DNA from: Candidatus Poribacteria bacterium
Lineage (GTDB): Bacteria; Poribacteria; WGA-4E; WGA-3G
Length of the DNA stretch: 33,600 nucleotides
Direction: 5' to 3'
NCBI GenBank assembly: GCA_028820845.1
Contig: JAPPII010000001.1
Location: 1-33,600 of the forward strand
The notes under the pieces were generated by a model, which had not been told where the DNA came from, did no database searches, and saw only the letters and a list, made by a program, of their open reading frames with translations. A program made the translations under genes and the position numbers. Shown here in pieces: positions 1,869 through 28,031 of the stretch (position 1 is the stretch's first letter; each line of letters begins with the position of its first letter).

Positions 1869-2003
1869 AGGTCTCCCCTATAATTTTGGCGTAAATGCCA
1901 GACTGTCCGCACCGATTTCACAACCAGTGATAATTTAACATAATATAGATACCTTTTAGAAAACGCACGAATAATCCGCGCCTTTTCCACAAATGTTTCT
2001 ATA

Positions 2004-2032
2004 ATTATACCCAATATTTGACAATTAATCAA
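2004..2032 (-). promoter_or_regulatory. Sigma70-type promoter of the TonB receptor
   Basis: On the minus strand TTGATT (-35) and TATAAT (-10) are spaced by 17 bp. The -10 is perfect. The predicted start lies near 1997, about 130 nt upstream of the receptor's ATG. Confidence 0.6.
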
Positions 2033-2065
2033 ATTACCTATACAAAAATCCAAATAAATTTAGAC

Positions 2066-2094
2066 TTGACAATGAAAATGTGTTGATATATACT
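2066..2094 (+). promoter_or_regulatory. Sigma70-type promoter of the 420-aa gene
   Basis: TTGACA and TATACT are spaced by 17 bp, a near-consensus promoter. The transcript would start near 2101, about 90 nt before the ATG at 2194. Confidence 0.75.
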
Positions 2095-2193
2095 TAAAGT
2101 TATGTGTTAAACTTGGTGCTATACACTGTGAGAATATAAACAGTTATCGAAGCGTTCACCAAATAACTACACTCATAACAGAAATACATTACC

Positions 2194-3456
2194 ATGGCTA
2201 AGAAAAAGGGACGCCGCTCCGCAAATGTGGCACGAAAACGTGAAAAACGAAAGCGCTACCAGAAATCCAGGCAGAAGCAGCTTGCCGTCGAAAAGCAACG
2301 CAGACTCCGCTACGAAAAATCAGAAGAAGAGCATTTACATGCCTGCATTGCACAGAGCCGACAACTGCTCCATGAACCTGAACTTGAAGGCGTACTTTTC
2401 GATCCCGAACTGATGTATACACAGGTAATGGAACTCCTCAGTGATTACGAAGTAGAGGGGCGAGATACACCTACAAACGAATCAGTTGAAGTGAGCCCAA
2501 TTTTCCCGCGAAACGCATTGGACACAGAAATGGCGATCATGGAGCAACCCGCTTCAACATCGGACGCGGAGACAGCGTGTGAGAACTTTCGGTTAGAGGT
2601 ACTTCCACATCTGGTTACACCGGAATTCATGCGAAACCTTAGACAAGCACTCACAGCATGTGAAACTCGTCTCAAGTTGACCGGCAACCGAAACCTTGCC
2701 GAGGTGGCTTATGTGACGCGCTCCCTTTTTGAGGCAGCACCGCCGGAAATATTAGCATTTCACCCAATGATCCAAGCCATCGGTATTGAAACGTTACGGG
2801 TGCTTGTAGAGGAACAAGACTTAATTATCGAATGGCGTGATGGTGTAAAAGAAATTCTTTCAGACGTATTAGAGCACGAAGATTTGGAAGCATCCTCGCC
2901 TCAACAGACCTCTGTCTTTTCGGATACTCCCATTGATAACAAACGCCAGAAAGGCAATGATACTGAAACGACACCTCCGGCCTTAGATGCAATGGATGTC
3001 GAAACAGAAACCTATATTGAGTATGCTGCTCCGAATCGGGACGAACCAGAGGTGAATGCAACAATAGAAGCAGCGTTAGATCCGGCACCTGTTGAGAGCC
3101 TTGAAACACTTATGCTGGAAGCAGCCCCACAGCCGTTATCCTTCTCACCCGACGAACTTCCAGCTCGAGCACTCTACAAAAATTTCACAGGGCTGGCAAT
3201 AAAGGAAAATTTTAAAGAACAAACAGACAAAGTGGCTTCACAAAACGGTCTTCTCAATTACGCTTTGGTAAGCGAAAGCGAAGAGCAGATCGAATTTATT
3301 GATATAGAGAACGAACGCTATGTGAAAATCACCGAAGAACGACTTCAGTTACACGCGCGCTCAGACACAGAGTTGCGTATTGCAATGACAGAGATAGAAG
3401 CACAGTGTTCATCGGTACTCATGTACCTTGCCAAAACGATCGAAGAAAGGGGGTAA
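2194..3456 (+). CDS. Unrecognised 420-aa protein with highly basic N-terminus
   Basis: I do not recognise the family. The first 45 residues are almost all Lys/Arg/Gln (MAKKKGRRSANVARKREKR at the start), as expected for a nucleic-acid-binding or ribosome-associated tail. A mainly helical segment (about 45-90) follows, then a helical stretch about 125-225, an acidic low-complexity linker about 230-310 and a C-terminal part about 320-420 containing YVKITEERLQL. There is no signal peptide, membrane helix or catalytic motif that I can see. The gene has a near-consensus promoter at 2066-2094, so it is probably expressed. A Shine-Dalgarno sequence is not evident before the ATG. A 39-aa basic peptide gene begins 4 bases after its stop, suggesting co-translation. 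The coding call is firm; the function is open. Confidence 0.8.
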   Translation: MAKKKGRRSANVARKREKRKRYQKSRQKQLAVEKQRRLRYEKSEEEHLHACIAQSRQLLHEPELEGVLFDPELMYTQVMELLSDYEVEGRDTPTNESVEVSPIFPRNALDTEMAIMEQPASTSDAETACENFRLEVLPHLVTPEFMRNLRQALTACETRLKLTGNRNLAEVAYVTRSLFEAAPPEILAFHPMIQAIGIETLRVLVEEQDLIIEWRDGVKEILSDVLEHEDLEASSPQQTSVFSDTPIDNKRQKGNDTETTPPALDAMDVETETYIEYAAPNRDEPEVNATIEAALDPAPVESLETLMLEAAPQPLSFSPDELPARALYKNFTGLAIKENFKEQTDKVASQNGLLNYALVSESEEQIEFIDIENERYVKITEERLQLHARSDTELRIAMTEIEAQCSSVLMYLAKTIEERG

Positions 3457-3460
3457 AATT

Positions 3461-3580
3461 ATGCCACGGAGTAAAAGCGGGCTGGTCCGGCGTCGGACGC
3501 AAATCCGTCAACGCCAAAAACGACGCCTGAAAAAGAAGAAAGCGACATTGAAAGAACTCTTGCAGAACCGCGCAGTTTAA
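3461..3580 (+). CDS. Small basic peptide, 39 aa
   Basis: A short open frame (start MPRSKSGLVRRRTQIRQ, end LKELLQNRAV) lies 4 bases after the stop of the 420-aa gene. An AAAGGGGG Shine-Dalgarno sequence sits about 8 bases before its ATG, the best ribosome-binding site in this part of the window. About 16 of 39 residues are Lys or Arg, including a run RRLKKKK, so the predicted pI is very high. Such composition fits a nucleic-acid-binding or ribosome-associated microprotein. It shares this composition with the N-terminus of its upstream neighbour. No known small ribosomal protein (bL34, bL36, THX) matches by eye. Spacing and ribosome-binding site support a real gene. Confidence 0.62.
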   Translation: MPRSKSGLVRRRTQIRQRQKRRLKKKKATLKELLQNRAV

Positions 3581-3599
3581 GACACCCAGTTCCCGTCGA

Positions 3600-3618
3600 G
3601 GCGGGTTCCCTGCCCGCC
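3600..3618. terminator. GC-rich stem-loop between convergent genes
   Basis: GGCGGG (3600-3605) pairs with CCCGCC (3613-3618) around a 7-nt loop. It lies between the basic-peptide gene and the convergent nitroreductase gene, where a two-way terminator would be expected. It has no strong T-tract, so it may instead belong to the dispersed palindromes seen elsewhere in the window. Confidence 0.45.
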
Positions 3619-3639
3619 CATATCACTAAGATTCAACAC

Positions 3640-4410
3640 CTACTTCACCTTCTCAAAATGCACGAACTCCGAGGTCGGCAATCGGACAGCGCTTTCGGTC
3701 TCTTTTTCAACATATCCGAGTCTGAGAAGTGTAATTACCTCATGAAAGATAGGAATATTGAAAAGCTGGCGAATCTGTTCACGATCCGTTGAACGTTCTA
3801 AAGGCGCACTGACAAACTGCACACCGATGTCTAACGCTGTCGCTGCGAGAAGGATGTTCTGAATTAACATTCCCATACTCAACCACATCCATCGGGACCC
3901 ACCTTCACCGGGCGGATATCTCTTGCAATTCATCGTAACCAGCATAAGTAGCGGTGCCTCGCGCACCTGCAGCGAAATCTCCTTAGCCGGTATCTTCCCA
4001 GCTCCCAGATGCCCTAAAAGTGTAAATGACTTGGCGTTTTTTAAGAGGCTCTGCAATAATTTTTCTGGGGCATCCTGAAGGGGTTTTGGTAGCGTCACGT
4101 GGTCTGCGAGCAAGACACCATCACCCAGTTCTTGCCATTCTTTTTCTGTGAGACGCATCCAACGGCTATTGTCATCAAGAAAGTTGGCATCCTTGAATTG
4201 CGTAATAACGGCACGCTCCGTCAGATCAGCGAGTGCCGATTTTCCTGCTGTCTCCTGAATCAACACAAGTTCCCAAGGTTGGACATTAAAGGGAGAGGGT
4301 GCCCATCGTGCAGCCGCAATGAGTTTTTCGAGGTCATCAGTTTCTATATCGCGCTTCTGAAATGTTCCGCGATGGCTTCGGCGTTGGGTTATTGCATCAA
4401 GGACATTCAT
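3640..4410 (-). CDS. Nitroreductase-family FMN oxidoreductase
   Basis: The 256-aa protein opens with MNVLDAITQRRSHRGTF, the family's Arg-rich FMN-phosphate-binding start, and carries APSPFNVQPWELVLI at about residues 37-51, the usual second FMN segment. The LGYVEKETESAVR segment near the C-terminus matches the LGYP-type motif late in nitroreductases. The family uses FMN and NAD(P)H to reduce nitro groups, quinones, flavins or other acceptors in the cytoplasm. The substrate cannot be told from sequence. Its ATG overlaps the stop of the upstream kinase gene (ATGA), so the two are translationally coupled. The family call is firm; the partner pathway is unknown. Confidence 0.88.
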   Translation of the reverse strand: MNVLDAITQRRSHRGTFQKRDIETDDLEKLIAAARWAPSPFNVQPWELVLIQETAGKSALADLTERAVITQFKDANFLDDNSRWMRLTEKEWQELGDGVLLADHVTLPKPLQDAPEKLLQSLLKNAKSFTLLGHLGAGKIPAKEISLQVREAPLLMLVTMNCKRYPPGEGGSRWMWLSMGMLIQNILLAATALDIGVQFVSAPLERSTDREQIRQLFNIPIFHEVITLLRLGYVEKETESAVRLPTSEFVHFEKVK

Positions 4411-5462
4411 AGGTTTATACAGTTCCGATGGCGTTCAAGGATCTCCGCCGGTGAAGCTGTACCAGTCGTTCCGATTTTGGTGACCGTAATTGAAGCCACC
4501 AGATTCCCGACATAAGCCGCCTCAATAGCTGCAGCACCTCCTCGTGAAGGGCGCAAACTACAAAGCGACGCAACAAGTCCAGCAGAAACACTGTCTCCCG
4601 CGCCAACCGGATCAATCTCACTATCAACAGGGATGCCTGGGATATGCGTAAATTTTCCTTCACAACAGACAAGAATACCGTTTTCGCCGAGAGTGACGTA
4701 TACCGTATTTTGGGTCTGCGCCGCGAGCGCGATGGCACACTGTTTCGCCATCGCGATGTCAACTTCGTGTCCGCGCCACCCCGGCTGAACAGCACGCTTT
4801 GCCTCAAACCGGTTCGGCTTAATGATCACATTCCGATACGCGCCAATCCGCGTCCGGGAGTCGGCGAAAAAAATCTTTTCAGGAAACGCCGCCGCCAGCT
4901 CACAGAGTGCTTCTCTCACTCGGTTGGTAATAACACCTAAATTTTCATGCGGCATCTGGTCTCCAACGATTATACCGTCAACAAGCGGAAGACAGGCTTT
5001 CAGGGCCTCAATAACTGCGGTCTCAACATCTTCTACCATTGGGGATTGGTTCTCAATATCGAACCGGGGTCCCTCTGTCTCCACGCCTTCATAACCGCGA
5101 TGTATCGGTTTGAGGTAGGTAGGCGTGACCAAATCCGGCACCTGTACCATAAAATCGGTCAAACACCCGTTCGCCTCTAAACGATTCAGCAGCGTTCCTC
5201 CAAATCCGTCCTCACCTATGACCCCAAGGGTGTAGACGTTACCCACACCCAACGCCTTCAGGTTATTTGTGACAGTCCCTGCTGCGCCGGGACTATAGCG
5301 TTGCGCAACGACCGGGTTGGTATGCCACGGTGTTTCCAGAGACAGCGTAGACTGCGTTTTATCTATGTGCCAGTAGGCATCAAGATAGAAATCTCCGATG
5401 ACAAGGATACGTTGTTGGTGAAATTGACTGAGAATAGTTTTCAGGCGCGCTTCGCTAATCAA
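4407..5462 (-). CDS. PfkB-family sugar kinase, RfaE1/HldE-kinase-like
   Basis: The protein has the PfkB fold signatures. ILVIGDFYLDAYWHID near the N-terminus resembles heptose-7-phosphate kinase. The substrate-site SPGAAGTVTNNLKALG follows, then IKPNRFE, and DPVGAGDSVSAGL near the C-terminus with the GAGD anion hole and catalytic Asp. No nucleotidyltransferase domain follows, so it is kinase only. RfaE1 phosphorylates heptose-7-phosphate for ADP-heptose and lipopolysaccharide core; other sugars are possible. Start: an ATG at 5483 exists, but TTG 5462 has GGAG 7 bases upstream and gives an 8-base overlap with the stop of res, so I prefer it (351 aa). It is followed by the overlapping nitroreductase gene. 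Confidence 0.82.
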   Translation of the reverse strand: MISEARLKTILSQFHQQRILVIGDFYLDAYWHIDKTQSTLSLETPWHTNPVVAQRYSPGAAGTVTNNLKALGVGNVYTLGVIGEDGFGGTLLNRLEANGCLTDFMVQVPDLVTPTYLKPIHRGYEGVETEGPRFDIENQSPMVEDVETAVIEALKACLPLVDGIIVGDQMPHENLGVITNRVREALCELAAAFPEKIFFADSRTRIGAYRNVIIKPNRFEAKRAVQPGWRGHEVDIAMAKQCAIALAAQTQNTVYVTLGENGILVCCEGKFTHIPGIPVDSEIDPVGAGDSVSAGLVASLCSLRPSRGGAAAIEAAYVGNLVASITVTKIGTTGTASPAEILERHRNCINL

Positions 5463-8088
5463 TGTATTTCTCCAAGGTCTCATTCACTGTTTCACGCCAA
5501 GAATCTTCAAATAGCATTCGGAAAGACATTGTTCTGTTATTAGGAGAGGTAATGTCCATTGTGCCGTGTGATGTAGCGTTTTGATAGGCTGTTTCCAACG
5601 CTTGAATGAGCTCCTGTTTATAGGTCGTGTCGCTATTGCCTTCAAGGTGTTGTCCTTTAGTCTCAAAGATACAGAGGCGTTGCGGTCCCGTTTGACTCCG
5701 TTGGAGACAAGCGATAAAATCTGGGTAGACGCGATCGCGTCGCCACCCTTGCAAGAAATATCCCTGCTTCGCAGCGATGCGGTGCCACCACTGAATCGCG
5801 TTCTGTTTGTCCAAGTAGAGCGCGAAATCTGTTTCTAAATTGTTGAATTCTGCTTCAAACACTTGTTCAAATAGGTTCAGCTGCAACGGATCCCCGTGTG
5901 GATGCGTCATCGGTCTTGCTTCAGGTGTAAGATTAACCATGAGAGTTTTTTCCATCTGGTAGTTTAACGCGGCATCTGCTTGTAGGTTAAACTGGATTTT
6001 CCCGTCTTCCAACTTCTCCCGAAAAACGGCTTCAGCGAGTTTGTCAATGCGATCGCGCAGATGGCGTTTCAAGTACTCGGAGAGATACAACCGATGTGTA
6101 TACAATGTTTCATCGTCAGTGCCTTCTTCACGGTAGGCAGCGAGCGTTGCCTTTACGATGCGTGCGGCGTGCCACGGGTTCGGCAGGACATCTCCCAATC
6201 GTCGCACGAAAAACGCTACCTCTAAGTTATGCGTTGCACTCGCTTGCAACTTTTTATTAATTACCGCTTCGTCTTGGAGGTGGATAGTGGCGCGAATTTC
6301 TTGGAGTTGTGCCTCCGCTCCTAAGTTGATAGGGGCTATCGCACCAAGTTGATGATAGTCAATTGCACTCAGGATGTCACGCTCATAATTGAGCTCTCGC
6401 CAGTTTCGTCCGTGTTTATGCAGGACGCGCGGCAGAAAGATGTCTGTATCACGGTATGCTTGCTTTCGTTTGATGGTTCGCTGAACATGCTCCGTACCCG
6501 GTCCTTCAACAAAATTGCCCAATCCTGTCAGCCCTTCTGCCTCTAATCCTTGCTTGACGTTTGCCACTGCATCTTTAACTTTCTGATTGTAACAGAAGAT
6601 ATAACAACTATCCAATTCAGGTTGGTTTGTAGCGCGGGCATAGGGTTGACGCATAACTCTGCCGATGAGCTGCGTCATTGCTGTTGCTGCGGTGGTGTTA
6701 TCAAGAAGCGCGAGCAGGTAAGCAAAGGGGCAATCCCACCCCTCTTTCAAGGCATCTTTGGTAATGATATAACGGACAGGGCAAAACGGACTCAGGAGGT
6801 CTATTCCCGAAAGCTCATCTTGTTCTGACGATTTCACTTTTACTTGTTCTGTCGGCACACCCAAAACGTCAATAAGTTCTTCGCGGGCATCTTCGGCGTG
6901 TACCCGGACCCCATCACGCTGGTTTTTGCCAGTGCGATCTACACGAATCACGGCGATCGGACGAATATAGCGGTTTTCTACTTGCTGGAACCATTTCGTC
7001 GTTTCCTCAAGTTTATCACGTTCTACCTTCGTCTGCGCGAGGGTATACTTCCAATCAGAATTCGGGAAATTTCGGAGTTGGATCGGGAGTTTAATCATTT
7101 CTTCGTCTTTAAGTGCAAGGCCGGAAATGTTGACGAGAATGTTACTGATGCCGAGTTTTGGGGTGGCAGAAAGTTCAAGGACAAAACGCGGATTGAGCCG
7201 ATTGACCGCCTCTACAAACTGCTCGTTATTTTTGGCGTTCCTACTCCCGTAAGCCTTGTGTGCTTCATCTAAAATCACGGTGGGACGCAGCAACTTCAGC
7301 ACATTAAAAAGACTCTGTTTGATGAGTCTGTCTGCTGGATTCACTGTAAGTCGAGGCTGTTGCGGTTGAGTGTCCGTTGCTGTTTCAAGGTCAGGATGCT
7401 TTTCCGATAATGCCTGATGTTCTCGGACATCATCTTCAACGGGAAAAAAGGAGGCATAACCGCCAGTATCACGGAAAATCTTAAGGAATTCCTTGTTTCG
7501 GTTTCGGTTTGCGGCGGGGAGCATGAGGAGCATGACACAGAGGTAGTTCTCAACATCGTGCTTCGTGAATCTATCGTCTTTCTGAAGCAGCTTGACGCGG
7601 TCACCGGAAGCGCGGTCCAAAATCTGCCGATACGGATGCTCTCTGTTCCGAAAAGCGTCATAAGTTTGTGTATAGATGGCTTTCGTGGGGACGAGCCACA
7701 GCACAAACCCGGTGCCGAGTTTCAAGCGACGCACCGCGTCTACACCTAACAGGGTTTTTCCACCCCCCGTTGGCACTTTTAGGCAGACATGCGGAATCGG
7801 TTCACCGGCGGCACTTTCACGCGAAATGTGTTTTGGAATCAGTTCTTGCCCTTGTGCGTCTGTAACGCTCGGTAGGGCAGCTGCTTTTCGTAAATTTTCC
7901 CATGCAATGTGCGGATAGTCCTCCGCTCGCGCTACTAAATTCGCTGCTTGCTCCATCAAGAAGTCTGGAACATCATCTGATGCGAGATATGCGGCGGCTT
8001 TATCTGCTTGCTGGTGGGCTTCCTCTAATGCTTGCAGATAGCGATCCAGTGTATCTAATGCTTGTTGCTGATAGTCTTTGAGTTCCAT
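5455..8088 (-). CDS. res: Type III restriction enzyme, Res subunit
   Basis: The 877-aa protein is an SF2 helicase-nuclease. Walker A is PTGGGKT (106-112), motif II ILDEAH (272-277), motif III SAT (308-310) and motif VI QLIGRVMRQP (473-482). The C-terminal nuclease is of PD-(D/E)xK type: VYPDFIA (Asp790) and IFETKG (Glu809, Lys811). In type III systems Res joins Mod to cut DNA when two unmodified sites are met, using ATP hydrolysis. The partner mod lies upstream at 8617-10362, but a HicBA pair sits between them, which is not the usual contiguous order. All motifs are intact and no frameshift is seen. The length fits the family. The ATG at 8088 starts 37 bases after hicA. Confidence 0.93.
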   Translation of the reverse strand: MELKDYQQQALDTLDRYLQALEEAHQQADKAAAYLASDDVPDFLMEQAANLVARAEDYPHIAWENLRKAAALPSVTDAQGQELIPKHISRESAAGEPIPHVCLKVPTGGGKTLLGVDAVRRLKLGTGFVLWLVPTKAIYTQTYDAFRNREHPYRQILDRASGDRVKLLQKDDRFTKHDVENYLCVMLLMLPAANRNRNKEFLKIFRDTGGYASFFPVEDDVREHQALSEKHPDLETATDTQPQQPRLTVNPADRLIKQSLFNVLKLLRPTVILDEAHKAYGSRNAKNNEQFVEAVNRLNPRFVLELSATPKLGISNILVNISGLALKDEEMIKLPIQLRNFPNSDWKYTLAQTKVERDKLEETTKWFQQVENRYIRPIAVIRVDRTGKNQRDGVRVHAEDAREELIDVLGVPTEQVKVKSSEQDELSGIDLLSPFCPVRYIITKDALKEGWDCPFAYLLALLDNTTAATAMTQLIGRVMRQPYARATNQPELDSCYIFCYNQKVKDAVANVKQGLEAEGLTGLGNFVEGPGTEHVQRTIKRKQAYRDTDIFLPRVLHKHGRNWRELNYERDILSAIDYHQLGAIAPINLGAEAQLQEIRATIHLQDEAVINKKLQASATHNLEVAFFVRRLGDVLPNPWHAARIVKATLAAYREEGTDDETLYTHRLYLSEYLKRHLRDRIDKLAEAVFREKLEDGKIQFNLQADAALNYQMEKTLMVNLTPEARPMTHPHGDPLQLNLFEQVFEAEFNNLETDFALYLDKQNAIQWWHRIAAKQGYFLQGWRRDRVYPDFIACLQRSQTGPQRLCIFETKGQHLEGNSDTTYKQELIQALETAYQNATSHGTMDITSPNNRTMSFRMLFEDSWRETVNETLEKYID

Positions 8089-8124
8089 TGTGTGATCACT
8101 TAACTGAAAAGTGGATTGATCTGA

Positions 8125-8316
8125 CTATGGAGGTGGAATTTTTAAATCTTTACAGATTTTCTCAACAAGCCACTTACCAATCTCATTATGGCGAGGCACA
8201 GCAGTTGAGACTTGAACACCTATATGCCTCTTACCCCACTGTGAGTGCCGGCCGCCTTCTCGAATAAAATAACAACCATGCCTCCTGAGATGCCTAACCA
8301 ACGTCCTTCGTTTCAT
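8125..8316 (-). CDS. hicA: HicA-type mRNA interferase toxin
   Basis: The 63-aa protein matches the small dsRBD-like HicA/YcfA family. It has MKRRTLVRHLRRHGCYFIREG, then GGRHS with the catalytic His at about residue 24 (most members have GSHH), and PRHNEIGKWLVEKICKDLKIP at the end. HicA degrades mRNA until HicB binds it. Here the gene follows hicB with a 4-base ATGA overlap, so toxin translation depends on antitoxin translation. It is placed just upstream of res, inside a type III restriction-modification operon. The catalytic His is present, so the toxin looks intact. Confidence 0.88.
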   Translation of the reverse strand: MKRRTLVRHLRRHGCYFIREGGRHSQWGKRHIGVQVSTAVPRHNEIGKWLVEKICKDLKIPPP

Positions 8317-8525
8317 ATCTGGATAGTGACTTCCTCATGCTCAACTTTTGCAGCCTTGATAGCCTCTTTACGATTGTATTCTACCATTTCCAGGAGCGTA
8401 ATTCGTAGTGCTTCAAGTAATTCGTCTTTAGTCCGTTCTTGGCCATTCACACCGGGAATTTCTTGTATCCATCCGATCCACCAGCCTTCGTCCTGTTGAA
8501 TAACTGCGGTATAGTTTTGTGTCAT
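8313..8525 (-). CDS. hicB: HicB-type antitoxin, minimal form
   Basis: The 70-aa protein has the HicB partial RNase H-like fold. It starts MTQNYTAVIQQDEGWWIGWIQ, followed by EIPGVNGQERTKDELLEALRITL, the usual antitoxin core. It ends at VTIQI with no ribbon-helix-helix or HTH DNA-binding part, unlike long HicB proteins of about 130 aa. It should neutralise the adjacent HicA by binding its active site. The gene has a strong AAGGAGG ribosome-binding site and its own promoter at 8560-8588, so it is transcribed apart from mod. Without a DNA-binding domain, classical autorepression is doubtful. Confidence 0.88.
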   Translation of the reverse strand: MTQNYTAVIQQDEGWWIGWIQEIPGVNGQERTKDELLEALRITLLEMVEYNRKEAIKAAKVEHEEVTIQI

Positions 8526-8559
8526 GGGTTCTGTCCTCCTTTAAGAAAATTACACAATA

Positions 8560-8588
8560 AGTGTAGCACGAATTTATGGTCAGGTCAA
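8560..8588 (-). promoter_or_regulatory. Promoter of hicBA (internal to the restriction-modification cluster)
   Basis: TTGACC and TACACT on the minus strand are spaced by 17 bp, with TGC just before the -10 (extended -10). The predicted start lies near 8553, about 27 nt ahead of hicB. It gives hicBA, and probably res, a transcript independent of mod. The -10 region resembles that of the TIR-like gene at 11996-12457. Confidence 0.65.
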
Positions 8589-8616
8589 ATCAAATATGAA
8601 CAACGGAAATCGCGCT

Positions 8617-10362
8617 TTACGCCTCCGCAATGCGATGGATGCTGTAAGGCAGCTGGCAGAACGTGATTCCCATATCCGTTAGTTCTTTCTGACTGACGAA
8701 TTTCTGTGGTGCATAGACGTAAGCCTTTTTACCGGTTTCTTGGCACGTTTTGGCGATCTGCTCGGCACGCGCCCCATCTAATGCCGACGCATTGCTCTCC
8801 AGAAATTCCAATGATCGTTCATAGATAAGATAGAAACGGATGTTGTCGGTTTCGCCAAAGCAGTAATCTTTCCGCTTTTCAATGGAAGTCAACGCGCTAC
8901 CGGTGGCAGTATAAGCGATATAGTGTGCTAAAGTTTCGTAAGAGGGGAGCGTCTCACCCGTGAGCATACCTTCCTCGTCAATCGGTTCACCGAGGGTGCA
9001 GTAGGTAAAGGAGCCGCCGAGGCCGTTTCTGAGGGTTTCATCTTTGACATTTTCAACTCCGTTAATGACGCGGCGGACGCGTTCTGCAGTGATGGTATCT
9101 GCGTAGTCTTCACATTCAACAAGAATAAACTTTCGGTTACCTCCATCTTCTTTATTGAGAGATAGGACAGCATGGGCGGTTGTGCCGCTACCAGCAAAAG
9201 AGTCAAGGATAATGTCGTTAGGACCAGTCGCCGCCTCAAAAATTGATTTTAATATTCCTTCATCTTTAGGAAATGGGAAAACCTTACCAAGTATCCTATT
9301 TAATCGTTGTGTTGCCCCTTGGGCATCTTTGTAAAAGACGCTATAGGGTGTCTCATACTCAGTTTCCCTTAGGTAATGTTTGCGTCTGGGCACAGTTTTT
9401 TCGTTACTCCCAAAGAGGATACGATCATCTGCGATAAGTTCTTTCATTCTTTCTTGGGTGTAACGCCATCCGTTTATGGGAACAGTACATGGCTTGTTCG
9501 TAATCGGGTGAATTACTGGATACCTGTCTTTTCCGCTAACTGGCGGAGAAGTACTGGTAGAACTATAAGGTCCCCGGTTATCCACATAGCGGTAATCTCT
9601 ATGTCTCTTAGCGGGGTCAACATCAGATAATCCACTAAACCATGCTGCCAATTCTTTCTCAATCTTTGGAAAGTCTTGTCCGTGCTTTCGTCCAAGTTCT
9701 ATATGTTTCTTGTAGACATCATCAAGTCCCTGTTTCCGCACGCGCCATGAGGTTCGCTGTTCATTCAGATACTCATGATTTTTGAGGTAGCACAGGATAT
9801 AATCGTGTGAATTGGAAAAAAGCCGAGAGTTGTTTTTTATTCGAGCTGCCCAGATAAATTGTCCGACAAAATTTCCCTTCGGAAAAATATCTTTTGCATC
9901 AAAAATGTCATCCATGATCGCGCGCAGGCGATGCACTTCATTATCATCAATAGAGATGAAAATAGCACCATCCTCCGTTAGCAACTCCCGCAATAAATGG
10001 AGCCGAGGCCACATCATGCACAACCATTTATCGTGACGCTCTAAATCCTCAACGTCAATAGGACTGTGCTTCTCTAACCACGCTTGCATCATCGGACTGT
10101 TGACATTATCATTGTAAACCCAACCTTCGTTGCCGGTGTTGTAGGGGGGATCGATGTAGATACACTTGACTTTGCCAGCATATTTCGGGAGGAGTGCTTT
10201 TAGGGCATGCAGGTTGTCGCCGTGGATGATGAGATTATCGTTGAGTGATGGATCCTTGTCATTGGTGAGGGATTTGTCTGCGTCTGTCTGTAAGGTGCAG
10301 ATGGGGACGGTGAGGTGGTGTCCGTAGATGAATTGTTTACCTTTGAAGTCGAGCGTGGGCAT
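8617..10362 (-). CDS. mod: Type III DNA methyltransferase, Mod subunit
   Basis: The 581-aa protein is an adenine-N6 DNA methyltransferase of the beta class. The catalytic motif DPPYNTG (71-77) precedes the SAM-binding motif FAGSGTT (389-395), the order typical of Mod. The stretch between them (about 180-340) is the variable part expected to hold the target-recognition domain, so the recognition site cannot be read. It methylates the host's sites and guides Res. AAGGA lies about 8 bases before the ATG. It is 42 bases downstream of a TIR-like gene and 91 bases upstream of hicB. Both motifs are intact. Confidence 0.94.
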   Translation of the reverse strand: MPTLDFKGKQFIYGHHLTVPICTLQTDADKSLTNDKDPSLNDNLIIHGDNLHALKALLPKYAGKVKCIYIDPPYNTGNEGWVYNDNVNSPMMQAWLEKHSPIDVEDLERHDKWLCMMWPRLHLLRELLTEDGAIFISIDDNEVHRLRAIMDDIFDAKDIFPKGNFVGQFIWAARIKNNSRLFSNSHDYILCYLKNHEYLNEQRTSWRVRKQGLDDVYKKHIELGRKHGQDFPKIEKELAAWFSGLSDVDPAKRHRDYRYVDNRGPYSSTSTSPPVSGKDRYPVIHPITNKPCTVPINGWRYTQERMKELIADDRILFGSNEKTVPRRKHYLRETEYETPYSVFYKDAQGATQRLNRILGKVFPFPKDEGILKSIFEAATGPNDIILDSFAGSGTTAHAVLSLNKEDGGNRKFILVECEDYADTITAERVRRVINGVENVKDETLRNGLGGSFTYCTLGEPIDEEGMLTGETLPSYETLAHYIAYTATGSALTSIEKRKDYCFGETDNIRFYLIYERSLEFLESNASALDGARAEQIAKTCQETGKKAYVYAPQKFVSQKELTDMGITFCQLPYSIHRIAEA

Positions 10363-25613: not shown

Positions 25614-28031
25614 ATGAAAAAAGTTTACCAATCACTTATAGTATGCCTACTAACCACAAGTCTATTTCTACCCAATACTTTTGCCCAGGATTCCGCCCAA
25701 TGGCATTTACCGCAGTACGCGACAGCCCGTTTTGGCAAAGGTTGGGTAAAAGACATAAAATTTTCTCCCTACAGTGATCAATTAGCGGTCGCAACCACCA
25801 TCGGTGTCTGGATCTACGACGTTCGGACTGGAAAAGAGCAGGTGTTGTTTTCTGGAATTATGGGGGGTGCCAACGCTGTATCATATTCCCCAGGCGGTCT
25901 CATGCTTGCAGCAGCACATTGGGATCAAACAGTTAGATTATGGGATACCAACACCGGGAACCATAGACCTTTGTCTACTTTCACAGGACACAACGGTGAG
26001 ATTCATGCTGTCGCGTTTTCGCCAGATGGTAGCATGCTCGCTAGTGGAAGTGCTGACAATACAATTCGCGTCTGGAATGTTAATACCGAAGCACTTATGG
26101 CAATTTTGCCATATAATAGTGCCATTAATACTATAGATTTCTCACAAGATAGTCAAATGATAGCCGGTGGAAGTGAGGACGGCACAATTCAGGTGTGGGA
26201 TGCTGGAACCGGAGATCGTATCTACGAGTTTCACGGACATACAGATTCAGTTTGGGAGATAGATTTCTCACCAAACGGTCAAATCCTTATCAGTGCAAGT
26301 CTCGATGGTACAGTTCAATTATGGAATCTTGTAGCACCGGGTGGTAGACTCGACGAACCAACACAACATAATATGCCTATCTACGCAGTGAATTTCTCAC
26401 AAGATGGACGTAATTTTGCTACCAGTGGGGCAGATAGTGAAATTCGAGTATGGGACACCAATACTCGTGAGCTTACATCCACACTTACTGGACACAATGA
26501 TATAGTACCAACAGTCACATTATCACCAGATGGTACTACCCTCGCAAGTGGCAGTTTAGATGGAACAGTCCGACTATGGAATATGCGTCTTTTTCAAAAA
26601 CGGTTAGAACTTAAAGGACATACTGGCGGAGTCAAAGCATTGACACATACAGAAGATAACCGCATCCTCGCCTGCGGTACTGGATTAGATAATAAACTCC
26701 GATTGTGGGACGCAAGCACAGGTAGACAGCTTTCCAAACTTCAAGACCACAGCGGATTAACAGAGGCAGTCGCTTTTTCAAAAAATGGCAAAACGCTTGT
26801 CAGTGCTGGCAGTGAAAATGGAACTATTTTCATATCAGATATTACTCGCTCTGATGAAAATAGCCTGCAAACAACACTGACAGGTAACCCACTTGGTATC
26901 ACTGCTTTAGCATTTTCTCCCGCAGAAACCATACTTGCCAGCGGTGGCACAGATGGCAGAATCTATCTCTTGGATGTTCAAAACAGAACAGTGATGCAAA
27001 TACTCAGAGGTGCTCAGAGTAGTATTACTGCGTTAACGTTCGTCTTTGATGGCAACCACCTTTTCAGCGGCGAGGAAAATGGAATGATTCGGCGTTGGAA
27101 TTCTACGGGTCAAGAGATATGGAGTGGCAGAGGAGCATTCAGTGCAATTACTGCCTTAGCCTTTTCCCCGACTTTTGACTTTCTTGCAATCGGGGATAAA
27201 ATAGGGCAAATCTGGTTATTCGATTTTAGAGAAGATGAAACTCGTAAGATTTCCATATTCACACATCACACCCGAAAGATAACCGCCCTTATTTTTTCTT
27301 CGCATAGTAACACGCTTGTTAGCGGTAGCGAAGATGGCACTATTCTACTTTGGGATGTGAATGAAGTCCTTCGCAATACGGATGAATCCAACACTTCTTC
27401 ATCAGAGGGTAGTACATCTGTATCAAATACCATCCCCCCAGAACATAATACTACCGAACAGACTGCTCAAGAAATCGCTGAAAGAGCCTTAGCATCTACA
27501 GTTGCTCTCAATATACTGGATGCTAACGGGAATTCTATTGGATATGGTAGCGGTTTTTTTGTTCGTCCTGGATATATTGCAACTAACTACCATGTTATTA
27601 AACAGGCAAGAAGAATGTACTTTAAATCGGTTGGTGACGAGGCAACATATTGGGTTCAAGATATTGTAGCAACAGATCCGACGCACGATTTGGCTTTACT
27701 AAGGGTGTCATCTTTTAATATACCTGTCCTGCCACTTGCTGATAGCGATTCCGTTCAAATTGGCGAAGATGTTTATGCTGTTGGGAATCCTCGAGGCTGG
27801 GAAGGGACGGTTTCGGATGGTATTGTCAGTAGCATCCGAGGCGAAGGTAACAATAAATGGATTCAAATAACGGCACCTATATCTCCGGGAAACAGTGGAG
27901 GTGCGGTGCTAAATAGTAGCGGCGAAGTGATAGGTGTTGCTACCCTGGCAGCTCAAGCTGACTATGCTCAGAATCTTAATTTTGCTGTTCCATCAAACTA
28001 CCTTAAGATTCTGCTTCAAAGGGTAAGATGA
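25614..28031 (+). CDS. Secreted WD40-repeat protein fused to HtrA-like serine protease
   Basis: The 805-aa protein has a signal peptide (residues 1-24, cut after TFA). WD40 repeats fill about residues 40-585, many ending in the usual WD-type tail (LASGSADNTIRVWN, LISASLDGTVQLWN). A Ser/Thr-rich linker follows (about 585-620). The C-terminal trypsin-like domain has the HtrA triad: His660 in TNYHVI, Asp692 in HDLALL and Ser761 in GNSGGAV. No PDZ domain follows. It should act in the periplasm or outside as a protease controlled by a beta-propeller. AAGGA lies upstream at long spacing. It closes the TPR/TPR/toxin run on the plus strand. Confidence 0.9.
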   Translation: MKKVYQSLIVCLLTTSLFLPNTFAQDSAQWHLPQYATARFGKGWVKDIKFSPYSDQLAVATTIGVWIYDVRTGKEQVLFSGIMGGANAVSYSPGGLMLAAAHWDQTVRLWDTNTGNHRPLSTFTGHNGEIHAVAFSPDGSMLASGSADNTIRVWNVNTEALMAILPYNSAINTIDFSQDSQMIAGGSEDGTIQVWDAGTGDRIYEFHGHTDSVWEIDFSPNGQILISASLDGTVQLWNLVAPGGRLDEPTQHNMPIYAVNFSQDGRNFATSGADSEIRVWDTNTRELTSTLTGHNDIVPTVTLSPDGTTLASGSLDGTVRLWNMRLFQKRLELKGHTGGVKALTHTEDNRILACGTGLDNKLRLWDASTGRQLSKLQDHSGLTEAVAFSKNGKTLVSAGSENGTIFISDITRSDENSLQTTLTGNPLGITALAFSPAETILASGGTDGRIYLLDVQNRTVMQILRGAQSSITALTFVFDGNHLFSGEENGMIRRWNSTGQEIWSGRGAFSAITALAFSPTFDFLAIGDKIGQIWLFDFREDETRKISIFTHHTRKITALIFSSHSNTLVSGSEDGTILLWDVNEVLRNTDESNTSSSEGSTSVSNTIPPEHNTTEQTAQEIAERALASTVALNILDANGNSIGYGSGFFVRPGYIATNYHVIKQARRMYFKSVGDEATYWVQDIVATDPTHDLALLRVSSFNIPVLPLADSDSVQIGEDVYAVGNPRGWEGTVSDGIVSSIRGEGNNKWIQITAPISPGNSGGAVLNSSGEVIGVATLAAQADYAQNLNFAVPSNYLKILLQRVR

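Follow-up and report, generated by a model that had tools for sequence, protein, structure and literature searches.

The window analyzed here is a stretch of 33,600 nucleotides, positions 1 to 33,600 (forward strand) of contig JAPPII010000001.1 in assembly GCA_028820845.1, a 5.69-Mb draft genome of a Candidatus Poribacteria bacterium in 125 contigs. Close to its beginning, a promoter is followed by two open reading frames (ORFs), which encode proteins of 420 and 39 aa (Table 1). The start codon of the second ORF is located four bases after the stop of the first. A preliminary description, made without database searches, had proposed this pair with its narrow spacing and a peptide of about 40% Lys/Arg, and both ORFs are indeed present. 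Lysine and arginine account for 16 of the 39 residues (41%) of the small protein, and a single residue is acidic. None of the other ATG-started ORFs of 33–60 aa in the six frames of the window (74 in total) attains a K+R content of 38%; hence, this composition is not the result of chance.

Table 1. Features of the two-gene locus, with positions in the window.
Feature	Positions	Strand	Remarks
Promoter of the two-gene operon (TTGACA-17-TATACT)	2066..2094	+	11/12 consensus positions
420-aa protein of unknown family	2194..3456	+	Homologues in 69/84 phylum genomes; dN/dS 0.217
Basic N-terminal tail (residues 1-45) of the 420-aa protein	2194..2328	+	20 K/R; long helix in the models
Ribosome-binding site of the 39-aa gene (AAAGGGGGTAAAATT-ATG)	3445..3460	+	Overlaps the 420-aa stop codon
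Basic 39-aa product, putative ribosomal protein specific to the lineage	3461..3580	+	Profile matches in 78/84 phylum genomes; dN/dS 0.106

In the genus of the window, unrelated genes lie on both sides of the pair, for example, a nitroreductase and a pfkB kinase in the window itself. Farther along, the window carries a type III restriction-modification pair on the minus strand (5455-10362), recognized with Pfam and composed of a ResIII/DEAD helicase-nuclease (5455-8088) and an N6/N4 DNA methylase (8617-10362). The plus strand also encodes (25614-28031) a protein of 805 aa in which many WD40 repeats are combined with a trypsin-like peptidase domain at the C-terminus.

The promoter had been described as strong and near-consensus, which is in agreement with its conservation. 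The pattern is found at 34 of the 39 loci of the genus, five of them second copies, which corresponds to 29/34 distinct loci, and the flanking sequence has diverged. It is missing at five loci (L012, L027, L028, L087 and L090). The motif TTGACA-N17-TATAMT occurs at 136 sites in the genome of the window (G000), and its reversed form at two; this phylum is therefore strongly enriched in the classical sigma-70 consensus. Just past the -10 element, a block on the plus strand (2095-2150, about CTAAACTTGATGTTA) has been retained across much of the genus amid diverged surroundings, and could be an operator or a leader element. No Rfam match was identified over positions 1900-3700.

At least seven exact bases of TAAGGAGGTGATC precede 34 of the 75 small-gene starts, compared to 10 among 166 ORFs with 250 aa or more, a crude background in which the first ATG was taken as the start. 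The other small-gene starts in the genus of the window are mostly preceded by AAAGGGGG, which can pair with the usual anti-Shine-Dalgarno sequence (it may not be that of this host) via one G-U pair.

The charges of the 420-aa protein form a dipole. Its first 45 residues, rightly noted as strongly basic in the preliminary description, comprise 20 K/R and five D/E (pI 11.5), and the other 375 residues contain 29 K/R and 74 D/E (pI 4.3). Two AlphaFold2 models, obtained with inputs of 27 and 41 homologues, have a mean pLDDT of 70.8 and 76.8 and a pTM of 0.43 and 0.45, respectively. Both concur on the layout: a long, basic N-terminal helix (about residues 2-40), a helical middle domain (124-233), disordered linkers and a C-terminal alpha/beta domain (324-416), in which the elements are ordered strand-helix-four strands-helix-strand. 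A Foldseek search with these models retrieved nothing at E ≤ 0.001. In the VIA fold comparison of the C-terminal domain, the best Z values (8.1 and 8.8) were obtained for BBS7 (rmsd 2.9, 92 aligned), followed by TBP at a Z of about 6-7; BBS7 and the TBP halves are both only middling matches, from which no function is deduced. The profile of this large family, built from 27 homologues, matches in essentially the order of the window. Two outliers, a fragment in genome G053 and a weak row in G052 (E 2.5e-6), are both located off the contig of the small gene. The sole row of the large family among PDB profiles (Neoleukin-2/15, E 0.063) and its two weak rows among PHROGs (0.16 and 0.34) were taken as chance, and the comparison with PADLOC gave no rows.

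The small protein is present nearly throughout the phylum. With the 39-aa sequence as the query, 57 of 60 relatives already match at E ≤ 1, some of them weakly. A profile of 30 N-terminal residues, built from 17 rows and used with a cut-off of E ≤ 0.01, detects the protein in 78 of 84 phylum genomes, including 53 of the 55 of high quality, and in 19 of 21 genera; in the genome with the poorest top match, E is about 6.5e-12. The protein is single copy in these genomes except for G061, which has three copies. Extra weak rows in G001 and G009 are interrupted by a stop. Six genomes gave no match to the profile (G015, G065, G067, G048, G049 and G056). The first four are also devoid of the large gene, hence their assemblies probably lack this locus; in G049, a contig end lies 63 bases from the start of the large gene. 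As yardsticks, bS20 was found over its cut-off in 77/81 genomes, bS21 in 73/81, and bL36 and bL34 in 28/29 each; the spread of the small protein matches that of bS20 and bS21. A scan of one-genome-per-species contigs with one strict peptide pattern gave 126 matching stretches, four of which were confirmed, all from Candidatus Poribacteria; divergent members would escape such a pattern, and absence from other phyla is not implied.

The length of the small protein varies from 28 to 83 aa (median 39, 75 distinct loci), with a variable C-terminus. In the core, M1, K5, R11, I15, Q19, R21 and K24 are invariant among the 17 rows. In two genomes of family f6, the small proteins carry a C-terminal extension with KLGITVEELLE (L083:4124-4372 (+) and L084:5816-6001 (-)), which resembles part of a helix-turn-helix (weak HTH Pfam rows).

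The small gene is under strong purifying selection. The Nei-Gojobori method, applied to 561 mutually dependent pairs from 34 distinct genus loci, gave a dN/dS of 0.106 (dS 0.68) for the small gene and 0.217 (dS 1.09) for the large one. In one single pair, L002/L005, synonymous differences exceed the non-synonymous ones (Fisher p = 9e-5 after rounding down). The synonymous-biased change that had been suggested as a check of the 39-aa frame is thus observed, and the frame is a real short gene, as initially proposed: its phylum-wide conservation, together with the dN/dS, rules out a spurious ORF. The codon usage of the small gene is unlike that of ribosomal proteins (mean log ratio of -0.037 per codon over 39 genus loci; ribosomal chunks give +0.024 and background chunks -0.016), but with such a weak bias in this genome the test is of little value, being uninformative or slightly against a ribosomal protein.

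At E ≤ 10, Pfam and NCBIfam gave no match to either protein of the pair. The initial view that the 420-aa protein belongs to no known family is borne out, and extends to the small protein: both lack any convincing sequence match in Pfam, NCBIfam or the PDB. For 26 members of the small family, the Pfam and NCBIfam rows are scattered and weak, with nothing convincing among them. Those of DUF465 (five members, best 0.0073), RRXRR (0.00087, two members) and HTH_3 (0.0053, two members) are discordant between members and were considered as chance, as were the PDB profile rows (designed repeat proteins and MafA), which originate from the C-terminal extension of two rows or from the basic composition. 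The 30-residue core profile gave no match in the PDB, and no paper describing the small protein was found in a literature search. A paralogous relation to the basic tail of the 420-aa protein was rejected as well, the hhalign score of 11.1 being equalled by 65 of 200 shuffles.

Known small ribosomal proteins were also considered. The short basic starts of bL20 and bS20 resemble the small protein by eye, which is no more than a lead; the small-family members have no match to the Pfam families of bL20 and bS20. A truncated or replacement bS20 or bS21 was discarded because both exist as separate genes in most genomes (bS20 at full length), and bL34 and bL36 are present too. A homologue of bS22 looked promising by eye, yet the alignment was no better than shuffled columns: two bS22 sequences score 35.8 and 35.3 on average vs. 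shuffled-column means of 35.4 and 35.2. The bS22/mS38 profile COX24_C (PF08213) is absent among the matches of the 26 small-family members. This profile was over its cut-off in none of 60 genomes, and its seven weak rows (E 0.008-0.76) are all at other places; canonical bS22 itself seems to be absent from Poribacteria.

The two genes are tightly linked. In 66/66 genomes in which the locus of the large gene is contiguous (the 69 genomes with this gene minus G049, at a contig end, G052 and G053), the small gene is adjacent on the same contig. A disruption of the 39-aa frame in relatives that keep the 420-aa gene, which would have spoken against the initial proposal, is thus not observed in any of these 66. 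The pair members are up to about 600 nt apart (G043 and G046). Among the 34 distinct genus loci, the gap from stop to ATG measures 4 nt in 29, 3 nt in two and -14 nt, an overlap, in three; the large ORF also extends 14 nt into the small one at the loci of genus g19. Such constant adjacency and such overlaps are what an obligate complex of both proteins, acting jointly on nucleic acid, would lead one to expect. However, the small gene occurs without a large-family match in 10 genomes (G037, G050, G051, G054, G055, G057, G058, G059, G060 and G061), in quite different neighborhoods. The idea of two proteins that act only as a pair, contained in the preliminary description, is not supported by this observation, and we regard an obligate complex as very improbable.

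In family f5 (L078-L080), the small gene is preceded by another unknown gene. The upstream family, of 310-340 aa, displays VVVENPEEL...DDEAIxxMxTGQAIEDYVY (L078:4980-5912 (+), L079:6128-7141 (-) and L080:1925-2902 (+)) and gave nothing over the Pfam cut-off. In G060 and for one of the G061 copies, the small gene is followed by an AAA ATPase, called MoxR-like here on the basis of its best AAA rows, and by holA. On contig C446 of G061, a deep relative, bS21, an ORF of 140 aa (basic at its N-terminus, with CxxC motifs), the 39-aa homologue and infC succeed each other on one strand, with gaps of 51, 14 and 30 nt. This is the only one of about ten distinct neighborhoods in which translation genes adjoin the small gene. 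Three copies each of the diverged small gene (L132 on C446, L133 and L134), bS21 and IF-3 are present in G061 but one each of bS20, bL34 and bL36; therefore, paralogy or a mixed bin is possible.

With a probability of roughly 0.55, we propose that the 39-aa protein, specific to the phylum Poribacteria, is a small component of the ribosome or is tightly bound to it. This reading is based on a short, extremely basic and position-conserved protein, single copy and nearly phylum-wide, whose surroundings change and whose gene is located once between bS21 and infC. General traits of ribosomal proteins, i.e., near-universal presence in the lineage, a single copy and strong purifying selection, are found in the small family. 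Judged from sequence and context, binding to the ribosome or to RNA is plausible. The vicinity of infC and bS21 in G061, and the three copies of all three genes in this genome, would also suit a factor associated non-permanently with the ribosome, in assembly, initiation or hibernation. A structural protein is at least as compatible with the tiny size and the near-universal single copy, and the hibernation and assembly factors known to us are larger, which counts against such a factor; we deem it unlikely. A DNA-condensing protein of the nucleoid, comparable to a histone tail or a protamine, would account for the composition (Lys/Arg content and one acidic residue), and DNA is bound by basic helices as well. 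However, Q, I, S and G positions are conserved beyond the needs of a charge polymer, and the sole informative neighborhood, that of C446, is translational, which makes a nucleoid protein rather improbable.

As a ribosomal protein, the small protein would be a short basic peptide, probably helical, inserted into an rRNA pocket. In other lineages, bS22, bTHX, bL37 and eL41 are short basic peptides that insert into rRNA pockets. In the order of the window, its gene comes second in a two-gene operon, where the strong ribosome-binding site across the end of the first gene may ensure, by translational coupling, that both proteins are made together. The basic N-terminal helix of the 420-aa protein probably contacts RNA too. 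This larger protein may be an accessory factor limited to the order, with a putative role in assembly, in regulation or in the escort of the basic peptide. As a speculation, its acidic body suits the escort role. Taken to its full extent, this scheme would comprise a phylum-specific ribosomal protein, unrelated to bS22 and eL41 but with the same action, translationally coupled with an acidic escort that captures the nascent peptide and delivers it via a basic helical tail; we consider the scheme as a whole doubtful. Eukaryotes have dedicated ribosomal-protein chaperones, and the escort, if true, would be their equivalent in bacteria.

The catalogue of ribosomal proteins in bacteria rests on a few model phyla, and bS22, bL37 and bL38 of other lineages were discovered only via cryo-EM, because gene finders skip small basic proteins. 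The small family is a signature protein for Poribacteria, and the linked partner gene in the order of the window provides a handle on its function. The small family is in this way similar to the PVC signature protein CT421.2, which is also short, conserved, without known function and found throughout one bacterial clade (PMC3444138). The part of that paper devoted to CT421.2 gives a size of about 53 to over 80 aa and reports its absence from Poribacteria; the small protein had no meaningful match among the NCBIfam models.

For Borrelia, the part of PMC10618245 that deals with bS22 and bL38 describes both as unannotated proteins discovered by structure, bS22 being composed of 61% Lys/Arg and located in the 16S h2/h27/h44/h45 pocket beside H68. 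Unlike bS22, mS38 and eL41, to which no homology is detectable, the Poribacteria protein has the core RSKSGxxRRRTQIRxRQxRR. Like these proteins, it is short, extremely basic and easily missed by annotation, and a family of 28-83 aa in nearly every genome of an uncultured phylum represents a concrete, testable candidate for another such protein.
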